From NCBI RefSeq assembly GCF_029490015.1, contig NZ_CP120468.1:1798001-1862000 (forward strand): 64,000 nucleotides of DNA. Reading direction: 5' to 3'. Below are positions 47,113 to 50,703 of this stretch, piece by piece. Within the stretch, counting starts at the first letter, position 1. Each line of letters opens with the position of its first letter. The notes below the pieces were generated by a model. The model did no database searches and was not told the DNA's origin. It was given only the letters and a program-made list of their open reading frames with translations. Origin of the DNA: Halobaculum limi (GTDB lineage: Archaea > Halobacteriota > Halobacteria > Halobacteriales > Haloferacaceae). Both the position numbers and the translations under genes were made by a program.

Positions 47113-48135
47113 TCAGTTGATCGACCCGGTCGGACTCTGTTGGAGTTCCACCACACGCCGCGTCCGTTGGTCGAGTTCGACGAGGTGACACAGCGGGTTT
47201 CCCGGGTAGACGACCGGGTTCTCCAACACGCCCACGAGGAGGCCGGTGAACGGCGCTTCGACGGTCACGTTGTCGTCTTTGAACGGGTTCGTGATCGTAC
47301 AGACGGTGTCGCCCTCGTGGACGAGTGATCCGTACTCGAAGTGCATATCCACCATCCCGCCGGCGTCGGCGCGGAGCCACGTCTTCTCCCGTTCGTCGGT
47401 GATGACGGTCCGCCACCCGGGCCAGCGGACCCGCTCGGCTTCGAGCATCCCGTACTCTGCGAACACCGACCGGACGCCAGTGAGTGCCTCGTCGATGAGG
47501 TCGCGTTGGAAGCGGTGCGCCTCGCCCATCTCTAGGGTGATGACAGCGATGTCGTCGACGACCGCCTCCGTGCGGAGCATCCCCGACGCGCCCTCGCTGT
47601 CGATGATGACGTTCGTCCCGTACGCACGCGCGAGGCGTTCGACCGCGGGGTCGCTCATATCTGCCCGCGCGTGGATCATATTCGTCCGTCCCCGCGTCGA
47701 CGTGTGGAAGTCGAGGCCGAAGTCACACGGTTGGATGAAGTTGCGGTAGATGCGCGCGGCCATCCGCTTGGCGCTCGTCGAGTCGGCCGCGCCGGGGAAC
47801 GACCGATTCAGGTCGCGGTCGTACACGGGGAGGTAGCGTTGCTGGGCGAGAAATCCCGGAACGTTCAACACGGGTAGACAGATGAGCGTGCCCGACAACT
47901 CCGAGAGGTCCCACTCGTGTGCCACCTCACGCACCACCTCGATGCCGTTGAGTTCGTCGCCGTGGGCGGCCGCAGAGAGAAACGCGGTCGGTCCAGATCG
48001 TTCGCCGTTGATGATCGTCACCGGAATACGGACGGGGTCGCCGAGATACGTCTCCGACACCACGAACCGTATGTTCTGTTGCTCGCCGGGGCCGACCCTG
48101 CCGCCGTTGTAGGTAAATGACCCGTCGTCGCTCAT
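47113..48135 (-). CDS. Succinylglutamate desuccinylase/aspartoacylase (AstE/AspA) family Zn carboxypeptidase
   Basis: 340 aa from the ATG at 48135. The zinc-binding HxxE site is in AAHGDELNGIEVV, and the later His in FGLDFHTSTRG completes the M14-like set; RNF... type Arg (DLNRSFPG) matches the substrate-binding NRxFPG. A C-terminal beta-barrel includes VHEGDTVCTITNPF. The family cleaves an amide next to an amino acid, such as N-succinylglutamate or N-acetylaspartate. It is divergent by 148 nt from the RimK-RimB fusion, with leaderless-type TATA boxes for both. Here it could remove an amino acid that the ligase adds; this is inference. Confidence 0.88.
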   Translation of the reverse strand: MSDDGSFTYNGGRVGPGEQQNIRFVVSETYLGDPVRIPVTIINGERSGPTAFLSAAAHGDELNGIEVVREVAHEWDLSELSGTLICLPVLNVPGFLAQQRYLPVYDRDLNRSFPGAADSTSAKRMAARIYRNFIQPCDFGLDFHTSTRGRTNMIHARADMSDPAVERLARAYGTNVIIDSEGASGMLRTEAVVDDIAVITLEMGEAHRFQRDLIDEALTGVRSVFAEYGMLEAERVRWPGWRTVITDEREKTWLRADAGGMVDMHFEYGSLVHEGDTVCTITNPFKDDNVTVEAPFTGLLVGVLENPVVYPGNPLCHLVELDQRTRRVVELQQSPTGSIN

Positions 48136-48283
48136 AGTCGCCGGTCGGCACGCGAACGGATAAACCACTCCACCGGGACGACGGGTGAAACGTAGGGCGT
48201 CGATCGAGCGTGACACCCGCTGTCGGTTCGCAACGACCGAACGGACCGGGACACATTTCTGTCCTCCGTCGAGTGTCGGTGGT
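48136..48283. promoter_or_regulatory. Divergent leaderless promoters for the AstE-like and RimK-RimB genes
   Basis: On the minus strand GGTTTATCCG (about 48157-48166) is 22-31 nt before the AstE-like ATG. On the plus strand CACATTTCT (48252-48260) is 24-32 nt before the RimK-like ATG. Both spacings fit leaderless transcripts and the shared 148-nt region would let one regulator act on both. Confidence 0.45.
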
Positions 48284-49642
48284 ATGAACGACGATTCGGT
48301 TCGTGTCGGGGTCCTCTCGCTCCACACGAGCAAGGAGTCGAAAGCAATCTGTAACGCCGTCGAGGCGCTGGGTCACGAACCGGAGTGGCTGCGGCGCGAG
48401 AACGCTGCCATCAGCATCGAAGACGACGAGGTCACCGTCGAACCGGACGTCGACGTCGTCGCCAACCGGATGCTCCTCTCGAACATCGAACAGCCCGCGG
48501 AGGGCCTCGGTCTCGCGCACACGTTCGGCCGTGCTCGACCCATCCTCAACGATCCCTCGGCCGTCCTGACGGCGATGCACAAGTTCGCCTCGGCGGTCGC
48601 GCTCGCGGAGGCGGACCTCCCGGTGCCGGACGCGCTGCTCGCGCTGTCGAACGATCGGCTCAACGATGGCCGCGAGCGCTTCGGCGACGAGGGTGTGTAC
48701 AAGACCGCTATCGGAACTCACGGCGGCGGGACCTGGAAGATCGACCTCACCGAACCGGTAAACCCGATGGTCGGGAACCGACAGGCGTTCCTGCAGGAAC
48801 TCATCGACCGCGACGACGCCCGCCACCACGATACGCGCGTGTACGTCGTCGGCGACCAGGTCGTCGGCGCGATGAACCGCTACGCCCCCGATGGCGACTG
48901 GCGCACCAACGTCGCCCTCGGCGGGGACGTGGAGGACGCCACCGAGTCGCTGGACCCCGAGGCACGCGAAATTGCGCTTCGCGCCTCCCAGACTATCGGC
49001 CTCGACTACGCCGGCGTCGACCTCGTCGAGGGGTACGACGGCTGGTACGTCCTCGAGGTCAACCCCACCGCCGGGTTCAAGGGACTGTTCAAGGCCAGCG
49101 GTCGCTCGCCTGCGCCCCACATTGCCCGTCTCGCCATCGAGAAGGCCGGCGGCACGGTCGACGACGACCTCGTGCGAGAACTGTCGTCGGTACTCGACGA
49201 CTCGACGCCGGCGTGTATGCCCGCTCAACACCGCTTCAACGACGGACAGATCCCGATCATCGGCTACATCGAGGAGGTCCACGTCGCCGGGACGCAGGGG
49301 TCGACGCAGGCGTTCGCCAAATCCGACACGGGCGCGACCCGCTCTTCGATCGACACCAAACTCGCCGCCCAAATCGGCGCAGGTCCGATCAAGAGCATGA
49401 CCCGCGTGAAGTCCGGGTCGGTCAAGTCGGGGAAGGCCCGTCCGGTCGTCGACCTCGTGGTCGGCATCGGCGGCGAACAGCACACGGTCACCGCCAGCGT
49501 CGAGGACCGCTCGCACATGGAGTACCCGGTGTTGCTCGGACGCGACATCCTCCAGCACTACCGCGTCGACGTCCAGCGTCGCGCGGACGATGGGGCCAAT
49601 CCCGACCTCGACGAAGAAGAAGAGGAAGGCGCTGAGGAGTGA
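48284..49642 (+). CDS. RimK-type ATP-grasp ligase fused to RimB-like (PF05618) aspartic protease
   Basis: 452 aa from the ATG at 48284. Residues 1-290 are a RimK-type ATP-grasp: ALSNDRLNDGRERFGDEG, KTAIGTHGGGTWKIDL, DQVVGAMNRYAPDGDWRTNV, then GLDYAGVDLVEGYDGWYVLE and NPTAGFKGL. Residues about 315-452 match the RimB/ATP-dependent-zinc-protease domain with a retropepsin-like DTGA active site (Asp348) and the terminal SVEDRSHMEYPVLLGRDIL. RimK adds glutamate to a protein C-terminus, and RimB removes or trims such tails in bacteria, where the proteins are separate. Combining both activities in one chain, next to an AstE-like peptidase, suggests a reversible C-terminal modification. Confidence 0.85.
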   Translation: MNDDSVRVGVLSLHTSKESKAICNAVEALGHEPEWLRRENAAISIEDDEVTVEPDVDVVANRMLLSNIEQPAEGLGLAHTFGRARPILNDPSAVLTAMHKFASAVALAEADLPVPDALLALSNDRLNDGRERFGDEGVYKTAIGTHGGGTWKIDLTEPVNPMVGNRQAFLQELIDRDDARHHDTRVYVVGDQVVGAMNRYAPDGDWRTNVALGGDVEDATESLDPEAREIALRASQTIGLDYAGVDLVEGYDGWYVLEVNPTAGFKGLFKASGRSPAPHIARLAIEKAGGTVDDDLVRELSSVLDDSTPACMPAQHRFNDGQIPIIGYIEEVHVAGTQGSTQAFAKSDTGATRSSIDTKLAAQIGAGPIKSMTRVKSGSVKSGKARPVVDLVVGIGGEQHTVTASVEDRSHMEYPVLLGRDILQHYRVDVQRRADDGANPDLDEEEEEGAEE

Positions 49643-49734
49643 ACACGCGCTGACGACGGTCGGACGTGTCACTCGCTGATAACTGACGCGGCGATGCCGG
49701 GTCGCTTTTCACGCTCGCGCCCACGATTCCAGCT

Positions 49735-49929
49735 ATGGGTTTCGGGAGCTACGACGAATCCGAGCAGGAGCGTCAACAGAACGACGGCGGCGAAGCCGGT
49801 GACGGGTCGACCGTGGACGCCCACGAGAACGACCACGACGGCAAGGCGAGTTTCGAGGCGGGTGCCTCGACGGACGACCTCGTCTCCCAACTGCAGGATA
49901 TGAAAGACGACGAAGACGAAGACGAGTAA
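49735..49929 (+). CDS. DUF5786 family small acidic protein
   Basis: 64 aa, starting GFGSYDESEQERQQNDGGEA. The composition is extremely acidic and Gln/Gly rich, with no hydrophobic core except SFEAGASTDDLVSQLQDM. It ends KDDEDEDE. The start motif matches the haloarchaeal DUF5786 family, of unknown function. A CGCTTTTCAC box about 24-33 nt upstream indicates a leaderless transcript. Position directly after the RimK-RimB gene and an Asp/Glu-rich C-terminus make it a candidate modification target or adaptor, which is only a hypothesis. Confidence 0.85.
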   Translation: MGFGSYDESEQERQQNDGGEAGDGSTVDAHENDHDGKASFEAGASTDDLVSQLQDMKDDEDEDE

Positions 49930-50094: not shown

Positions 50095-50703
50095 ATGTTC
50101 GAGTTCATTACGGACGAGGAAGAGCGCGGTCAGGTCGGTATCGGCACGCTCATCGTGTTCATCGCGATGGTGCTTGTGGCAGCAATCGCCGCCGGCGTGC
50201 TGATCAACACCGCTGGCTTCCTCCAGAGCAAGTCGCAGGAAACGGGTCAACAGAGCAGTAAGCAGGTTAGCAACCGCCTCCAGGAGGTTGCCACGGTCGG
50301 CAACGTTACGAGCAGCGATGAGGTCAACATCGTGAACGTGACGGTCACGCAGGCACCCGGTGCCGGTGAGATCGACGTACAGAACGCGACGGTAACGTGG
50401 ATCGGTCCGACGGGGACGTACCAGTTACAGTCGACCACGTCGAACTACAGTACCGCTGGTCCAGACCTGAGTGACGGTACGTACTCGTACGCGTCGGTCA
50501 AGAACGTCGCCGGTAACGAGAACGTGCTCAACGACCCCGACGACCGCTTGAACCTCGTCTTCGATGTCGACGCGTTCGCACCGAACAACCTCGGCGAGGG
50601 CGACGAGGTCACGATCAAGATCAACACGATGTCCGGCGCGACCACGAGCATCCGCTTCACGGTCCCCGAATCGCTCGGGCAGAAGGAAGCCGTCGAACTG
50701 TAA
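50095..50703 (+). CDS. arlA: Archaellin (archaeal flagellin)
   Basis: 202 aa. The N-terminus has a short charged leader ending in [16 protein letters not shown], the classic prepilin-peptidase (ArlK/PibD) site followed by a long hydrophobic helix that forms the filament core. The rest is a beta-rich, Asn/Thr-rich surface domain. Four N-glycosylation sequons (NVT twice, NAT, NYS) fit archaellin glycosylation in Haloferax. It polymerises into the archaellum filament. No other archaellum or chemotaxis gene lies in the window, so it is an isolated copy. Confidence 0.93.

Follow-up and report, generated by a model that had tools for sequence, protein, structure and literature searches.

A RimK-RimB fusion coupled to an AstE-like hydrolase in haloarchaea, a plausible system for reversible C-terminal glutamate tagging

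Polyglutamylation of proteins by RimK-type ligases has been studied on the bacterial ribosomal protein bS6 (PMC11957791), and in the RimA-RimB-RimK system of Pseudomonas the ligase is accompanied by a DTGA retropepsin, RimB, that both opposes and stimulates it (PMC4741518, PMC7343187, PMC11957791). The two activities can also be joined in one protein, as in the RimBK hybrid DP2392 of Desulfotalea psychrophila, for which protease activity was shown and glutamylation of RpsF was not found (PMC11957791). Among archaea, the RimK-family ligase ArgX of a haloarchaeon was found by liquid chromatography-tandem mass spectrometry to link glutamate to the C-terminal glutamate of ArgW (PMC10433800), while retropepsins of the RimB family also occur as the osmotic-stress proteases RloA/B/C of P. 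aeruginosa, with cleavage of poly-glutamate in vitro (PMC12239564). Here we describe a locus of the haloarchaeon Halobaculum limi, at positions 47113-49929 of the 64,000-nucleotide stretch of contig NZ_CP120468.1 that we call the window, in which a single protein combining a RimK-family ligase with a RimB-like retropepsin (the fusion) is encoded divergently from a putative zinc hydrolase of the AstE/AspA family.

This arrangement resembles each of the described systems in part. With Pseudomonas it shares a RimK-family ligase and a DTGA retropepsin of the same Pfam family, but ligase and protease form one polypeptide in the order K-B, the ligase scores under the S6-ligase cut-off, an AstE-like partner replaces the RimA phosphodiesterase, and there is no bS6: the family PF01250 was found in none of 59 haloarchaeal genomes, whereas the 10 bacterial control genomes were positive. 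The target of any tag must therefore differ from bS6. The bacterial RimBK hybrid likewise fuses both domains but has RimB at its N-terminus, and the example from Thioclava has neither a neighbouring AstE nor a Glu-Glu end, unlike the haloarchaeal fusion. ArgW/ArgX (LysW/LysX) is comparable in that a RimK-family ligase adds glutamate to a C-terminal glutamate of a protein, but the acceptor there is a separate small protein with the motif EDWGE (PMC10433800). Where ArgX has GSWGR, the motif recognising the carrier protein, the fusion has IGTHGGGTWK, and the genome of the window encodes its own ArgX candidate with GSWGR. The Rlo proteins, finally, combine the same retropepsin family with an ATP-grasp partner but are proteases that are secreted and have a transglutaminase-like partner in the membrane (PMC12239564). 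Our literature search found no paper on RimK in haloarchaea, and AstE is unmentioned in the RimK and RimB papers searched. A first-pass annotation of this DNA had known of no described haloarchaeal system with this layout, a judgement to be qualified, as the RimB-RimK pair and the RimBK hybrid are published and the trio of RimB, RimK and AstE is widespread in bacteria.

That AstE and the fusion are functionally coupled and constitute a genuine unit is well supported by their distribution. A gene was counted as present in a genome when its best E-value was better than 1e-100. By this measure the fusion is found in about 176 of 194 haloarchaeal genomes (missing in 18) and AstE in 179 (missing in 15), and none of the 15 genomes that lack AstE has the fusion (Fisher's exact p 9e-20 before phylogenetic correction). 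Several of these joint losses are independent because five of them (G014, G018, G052, G113 and G156) sit inside genera whose other members, counted by genus label, retain both genes. The three genomes that have AstE and no intact fusion (G183, G109 and G167) still carry a short, degraded remnant of it beside an intact AstE, which suggests that the fusion was lost first and AstE later; the remnants are a C-terminal piece in one locus (L047) and N-terminal pieces in the two others (L048 and L049). Distances were counted for the 127 genomes of the set with both positions listed, and among these matches the pair is divergent with a gap of 94-265 bp in 88 and lies within 6 kb in a further 33, giving 121 of 127, with the two genes unlinked in the remaining 6. 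The pair is thus conserved across the class, so that its arrangement in the window is beyond chance. Haloferax volcanii, a control genome, was likewise positive for the retropepsin family PF05618. The pair also lies together on haloarchaeal plasmids of Halolamina and Halorarius, and in one haloarchaeal family a GNAT-type gene, sometimes with a flippase gene, is inserted between AstE and the fusion.

Some further variants of this neighbourhood were noted in passing. The GNAT acetyltransferase-like protein of that family has a conserved, cysteine-containing C-terminus, ...CGNxRKATRWDASYL (L045:3357-4124, and L158, L161, L159, L046 and L171). Diverged extra RimK-RimB fusions without AstE occur on haloarchaeal plasmids (L034-L037 and L039), and the intact ones end in Glu; those of L035, L036 and L037 lie near genes for universal stress proteins, and L036 and L037 also have TVP38/TMEM64 nearby.

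The same three predicted activities recur, unfused, well outside the haloarchaea. Among AstE relatives in named bacterial contigs, RimK lies alongside in 64 of 80 loci and RimB as well in 55, in the gene orders B-K-A (45), K-A-B (8) and two others; B-K-A operons are present on annotated plasmids of Phaeobacter, Salinivibrio and the cyanobacterium Acaryochloris, and the unfused trio is also found in Vibrionaceae, Pseudoalteromonas and Idiomarina, as well as in the form of a RimB-RimK-AstE operon in an archaeal family that belongs to the same phylum but lies outside the haloarchaea. These operons differ from the haloarchaeal pair in that they are mostly co-directional and in that their RimK, mostly ending in Gly and typically in GKG, is of the S6-ligase type, passing the NF007764 model (cut-off 331) with 465 bits in Salinivibrio and 480 bits in the non-haloarchaeal archaeon. 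RimB, RimK and AstE hence form a three-part module that is genetically linked and co-inherited, and since the same trio is unfused in bacteria and in this archaeal family, the haloarchaeal pair represents a wider module in fused and rearranged form. An apparent K-B fusion in the chromosome-II "plasmids" of Vibrio was discarded, as the single two-domain tblastn match proved to be adjacent separate genes. Some non-haloarchaeal archaea (L060 and others) have a second, stand-alone type of PF05618 protein of about 180-200 amino acids that begins at position 25 of the profile, and the trio was not found beside the one such locus inspected. Iyer and colleagues are said to have predicted in 2009 that ATP-grasp amidoligases, RimK-like ones included, are linked to diverse peptidases and may already have mentioned AstE, so we claim no priority for the trio.

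The domain assignments behind this picture draw on profiles, conservation and structural models. At the N-terminus of the fusion, PF08443 matches residues 98-275 (96 bits), the protein passes the RimK family alpha-L-glutamate ligase model TIGR00768 (153.6 bits against a cut-off of 143.4), and the ligase domain matches RimK entries of the PDB at E 3e-20. K100, K140, R185, R199, R207, N209, D246, E258 and N260 are conserved among haloarchaeal fusions, and the catalytic residues together with the poly-glutamate contacts S7, R64, S68, R189 and N262 (RimK numbering) are retained. An assignment to LysX/ArgX was rejected (TIGR02144, 109.8 bits against 275.6, GSWGR motif absent). Further downstream, PF05618 matches residues 371-433 (42.3 bits, cut-off 27); D348 and G350 show conservation of at least 97% among 84 haloarchaeal fusions, and the D, T, G and A of the motif are invariant between haloarchaeal fusions and bacterial RimB. 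RimB was misplaced when the fusion was aligned jointly with separate RimK and RimB proteins, so this domain was modelled alone with bacterial RimB alignment rows (mean pLDDT, the predicted local distance difference test score, 76.7). The solved structures that the model matches best are RloA2 (9g59), Lpg0085 (DUF785, 2pma) and RloA, followed by Ddi1 and HIV protease, which identifies the domain as a retropepsin. At E 0.01 the fusion is not listed for the RimB equivalog NF052261 (cut-off 200), and the RimB proteins of the trio elsewhere also stay below that cut-off, with 132-145 bits.

For the AstE-like partner, an AlphaFold model with a pLDDT of 90 gave DoeB as top Foldseek match (6twm, E 1.7e-29), with CphZ and true AstE among the lower structural neighbours. 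H58, E61 and H144, which from family knowledge we take to be zinc ligands, as well as the presumably catalytic E202 and carboxylate-binding N110-R111, are at least 97% conserved across 79 haloarchaeal sequences and invariant against the AstE of the bacterial trio, to which the haloarchaeal proteins are 35% identical over 322 amino acids. In a tree with long outgroup branches, these two groups are sister clades with moderate support (89/69), separate from DoeB, E. coli AstE and distant paralogs. Neither the succinylglutamate desuccinylase of the arginine pathway (TIGR03242, 17 bits against a cut-off of 305.65) nor the ectoine enzyme DoeB (TIGR02994, 102 bits against 402.7) fits the profile scores, though DoeB is the nearest solved fold. 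The genome of the window encodes two more AstE paralogs (L186 and L187), 58% and 50% identical to the AstE of the window, that nest inside the haloarchaeal clade.

A newly observed feature of the fusion is its C-terminus. The retropepsin core is followed by 6-23 residues with little fixed sequence, of which the last is retained: among 124 fusions whose C-terminus was read, one of them truncated, a final Glu is present in 121 of the 123 intact ones, as part of Glu-Glu in 100, and a final Asp in none, and all of 22 representatives below 72% identity, plasmid paralogs included, end in Glu. In a background of 158 proteins from four annotated haloarchaeal plasmid stretches, as distinct from whole proteomes, a terminal Glu occurs in 20 and Glu-Glu in one, and 31 acidic-tailed proteins among them end nine times in Glu and five times in Asp. 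The AstE partners have no comparable Glu end. The RpsF acceptors also end in Glu, with GDSEE in E. coli and DNADE in P. fluorescens (PMC11957791). Because the terminal Glu is near-invariant and known acceptors end in Glu, we infer that the terminus of the fusion itself is a candidate acceptor or primer.

We favour, at about an even chance, the reading that the locus encodes a module of glutamate ligase, endopeptidase and exo-hydrolase with the tail of the fusion itself as the likeliest acceptor, and reversible C-terminal tagging is plausible. The ligase would use ATP to extend a C-terminal glutamate acceptor by an amino acid, most likely L-glutamate, the retropepsin domain would act as eraser by endopeptidic cuts in the glutamate extension, and AstE would free single terminal residues or finish the fragments. 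In the least certain step, the Glu-Glu tail of the fusion would replace the missing ribosomal protein as principal acceptor, with tagging or priming in cis or between subunits. Only tentatively do we suggest that the fusion may thus be its own substrate, a self-priming enzyme loosely comparable to glycogenin that would extend its own Glu-Glu tail, trim it with the retropepsin domain and hand the fragments to AstE. Several observations weigh against this scheme. The fusion fails the S6-ligase equivalog NF007764 (74.9 bits against a cut-off of 331), and its ligase domain is a long branch that does not group within true RimK in a tree that gives no settled origin for the domain. Two of the seven reported poly-glutamate contacts are altered throughout (R8 to L/F/P and S14 to E), and H215 and, in most cases, R216 have changed too; because of these changes the glutamate specificity of the ligase is a prediction only. 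Elsewhere, the RimK, RimB and AstE of the trio have no Glu-Glu end, which limits the idea of a self-acceptor to the fusion, two intact fusions terminate in L or A, and haloarchaeal proteins are acidic in general.

The identity of the acceptor is also where other explanations have to be weighed. The Glu-Glu tail might be a mere surface feature of halophiles, with another haloarchaeal protein as acceptor, which would compete only with the self-acceptor step and which we consider possible but doubtful. It would agree with the acidic composition of haloarchaeal proteins (E 8.8% and D 7.6% in the plasmid background) and with the bacterial acceptor being a separate protein, but terminal Glu and Asp stand at 121:0 in the fusions against 23:10 in DUF5786 and 9:5 in the acidic-tailed background, and the last residue is kept even though the tail varies so widely in length. 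The first-pass annotation had suggested such a separate acceptor, the small acidic DUF5786 protein encoded next to the fusion, and had read the locus as writer, eraser and a possible acidic substrate lying together. DUF5786 adjoins the fusion in the genus of the window and three other genomes, and its tail is indeed acidic. However, it is present in all 194 haloarchaeal genomes, every fusion-loser included, so that there is no co-loss, and it adjoins the fusion in only 7 of the 109 genomes with both listed, all of them close relatives of the window, being unlinked in the other 102. Bacterial RimB cleaves well only where five or six Glu follow one another, and it cuts poly-glutamate but not poly-aspartate tails (PMC11957791), while the tails of 38 DUF5786 sequences mix Asp and Glu, ending in Glu in 23, in Asp in 10 and otherwise in 5 (D, A, S or Q in 15 altogether), and would thus be poor RimB substrates or none. 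The coupling of ligase, retropepsin and AstE stands and their pair of genes is conserved across haloarchaea, whereas DUF5786 is no conserved neighbour but a bystander, and that it should be the substrate is very improbable. Each haloarchaeal genome searched has 1-4 copies of DUF5786, whose N-terminus, MGFGSYDESEQ, is invariant and whose acidic tail varies.

The strongest rival using the same enzymes is the synthesis and recycling of poly-alpha-glutamate, in which the ligase would make free or self-primed poly-glutamate, the retropepsin would chop it and AstE would return glutamate, as a nitrogen or osmotic buffer. RimK of P. fluorescens makes poly-alpha-glutamate without a protein acceptor, stimulated by RimB (PMC11957791), RloA, a relative of RimB, is required for hypo-osmotic tolerance (PMC12239564), and the breakdown of cyanophycin, made by the ligase CphA and cleaved by the peptidase CphB, follows the same logic in that an AstE-family enzyme, CphZ, itself among the structural neighbours of our AstE model, completes it (PMC12661447). 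Carriers of the trio include marine and halophilic taxa, though it was from such taxa that the search query was taken, and the paralogous fusions adjoin universal stress protein genes. All this makes a buffer conceivable, but the near-universal encoded Glu terminus is more easily explained by a protein acceptor, and we judge this alternative rather unlikely. A role of the tail as primer would unite it with the self-acceptor.

MptN, CofF and the mammalian NAAG synthases use a small carboxylate or a cofactor as the acceptor of an amino acid, and the haloarchaeal ligase might do the same, with AstE hydrolysing the amide and the retropepsin in a regulatory role. The RimK superfamily includes MptN, CofF and LysX, N-acyl amino acids are the classical substrates of AstE/AspA enzymes, and the closest solved fold of AstE, DoeB, is an N-acetyl-diaminobutanoate deacetylase. 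Yet the scores of the fusion lie far below every cofactor-ligase cut-off (MptN 121 against 350, CofF 50 against 300, LysX 110 against 275.6), and the presence of an endopeptidase, fused or linked, makes little sense unless the substrate is a peptide, so that a small-molecule system also seems rather unlikely to us.

The features of the locus in the window are given in Table 1. The layout first read from the DNA was borne out here: the AstE-like gene is divergent from the fusion across 148 bp, the single fusion protein matches both domains and has Asp348 in its DTGA motif, and the small third protein has the acidic ending described. The proposed leaderless-type promoters are likewise supported, since across about 80 haloarchaeal loci an A+T maximum lies at -30 to -24 relative to the start codon of AstE as well as that of the fusion, and each gene thus probably has its own. 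The conserved start of AstE is the ATG at 48135, while the listed open reading frame opens farther upstream at a TTG. Downstream of DUF5786 lies a gene resembling type IV pilins or flagellins (PF01917) at 50095-50703.

Table 1. Coordinates of predicted features at the haloarchaeal locus, in positions of the window
Feature	Position	Strand	Details
AstE/AspA-family zinc hydrolase, predicted carboxypeptidase/deacylase	47113..48135	-	340 amino acids; PF24827 148.5 bits (cut-off 25)
Divergent promoter region	48136..48283		148 bp; A+T peak across haloarchaea; gap of 94-265 bp in 88 genomes
TATA-like element TTTATC, leaderless type, -29..-24 of AstE start	48159..48164	-	
RimK-RimB fusion	48284..49642	+	452 amino acids
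RimK-family ATP-grasp ligase domain	48284..49150	+	About residues 1-289; TIGR00768, PDB, conserved residues
RimB-like retropepsin domain	49247..49582	+	About residues 322-433; PF05618 and model matches
Codon of catalytic-type Asp348 (DTGA motif)	49325..49327	+	Conservation
Variable acidic tail of the fusion, proposed self-acceptor or primer	49574..49639	+	Encoded Glu-Glu at 49634-49639
DUF5786 protein, neighbour judged outside the system	49735..49929	+	64 amino acids; PF19099 77 bits; ends KDDEDEDE

A near-universal haloarchaeal pair with the same kind of chemistry as RimK and RimB, in organisms without bS6, implies an undiscovered archaeal target or product. The consistent presence of AstE beside RimK and RimB, in lineages as far apart as cyanobacteria and archaea, suggests in addition that a component may be missing from the well-studied bacterial system. 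The near-invariant encoded Glu end of the fusion is an unexpected feature that makes a specific and direct test possible, and if the fusion does tag itself, it would hold a closed cycle of writing and erasing within one polypeptide, in an archaeal group without the bacterial ribosomal target.

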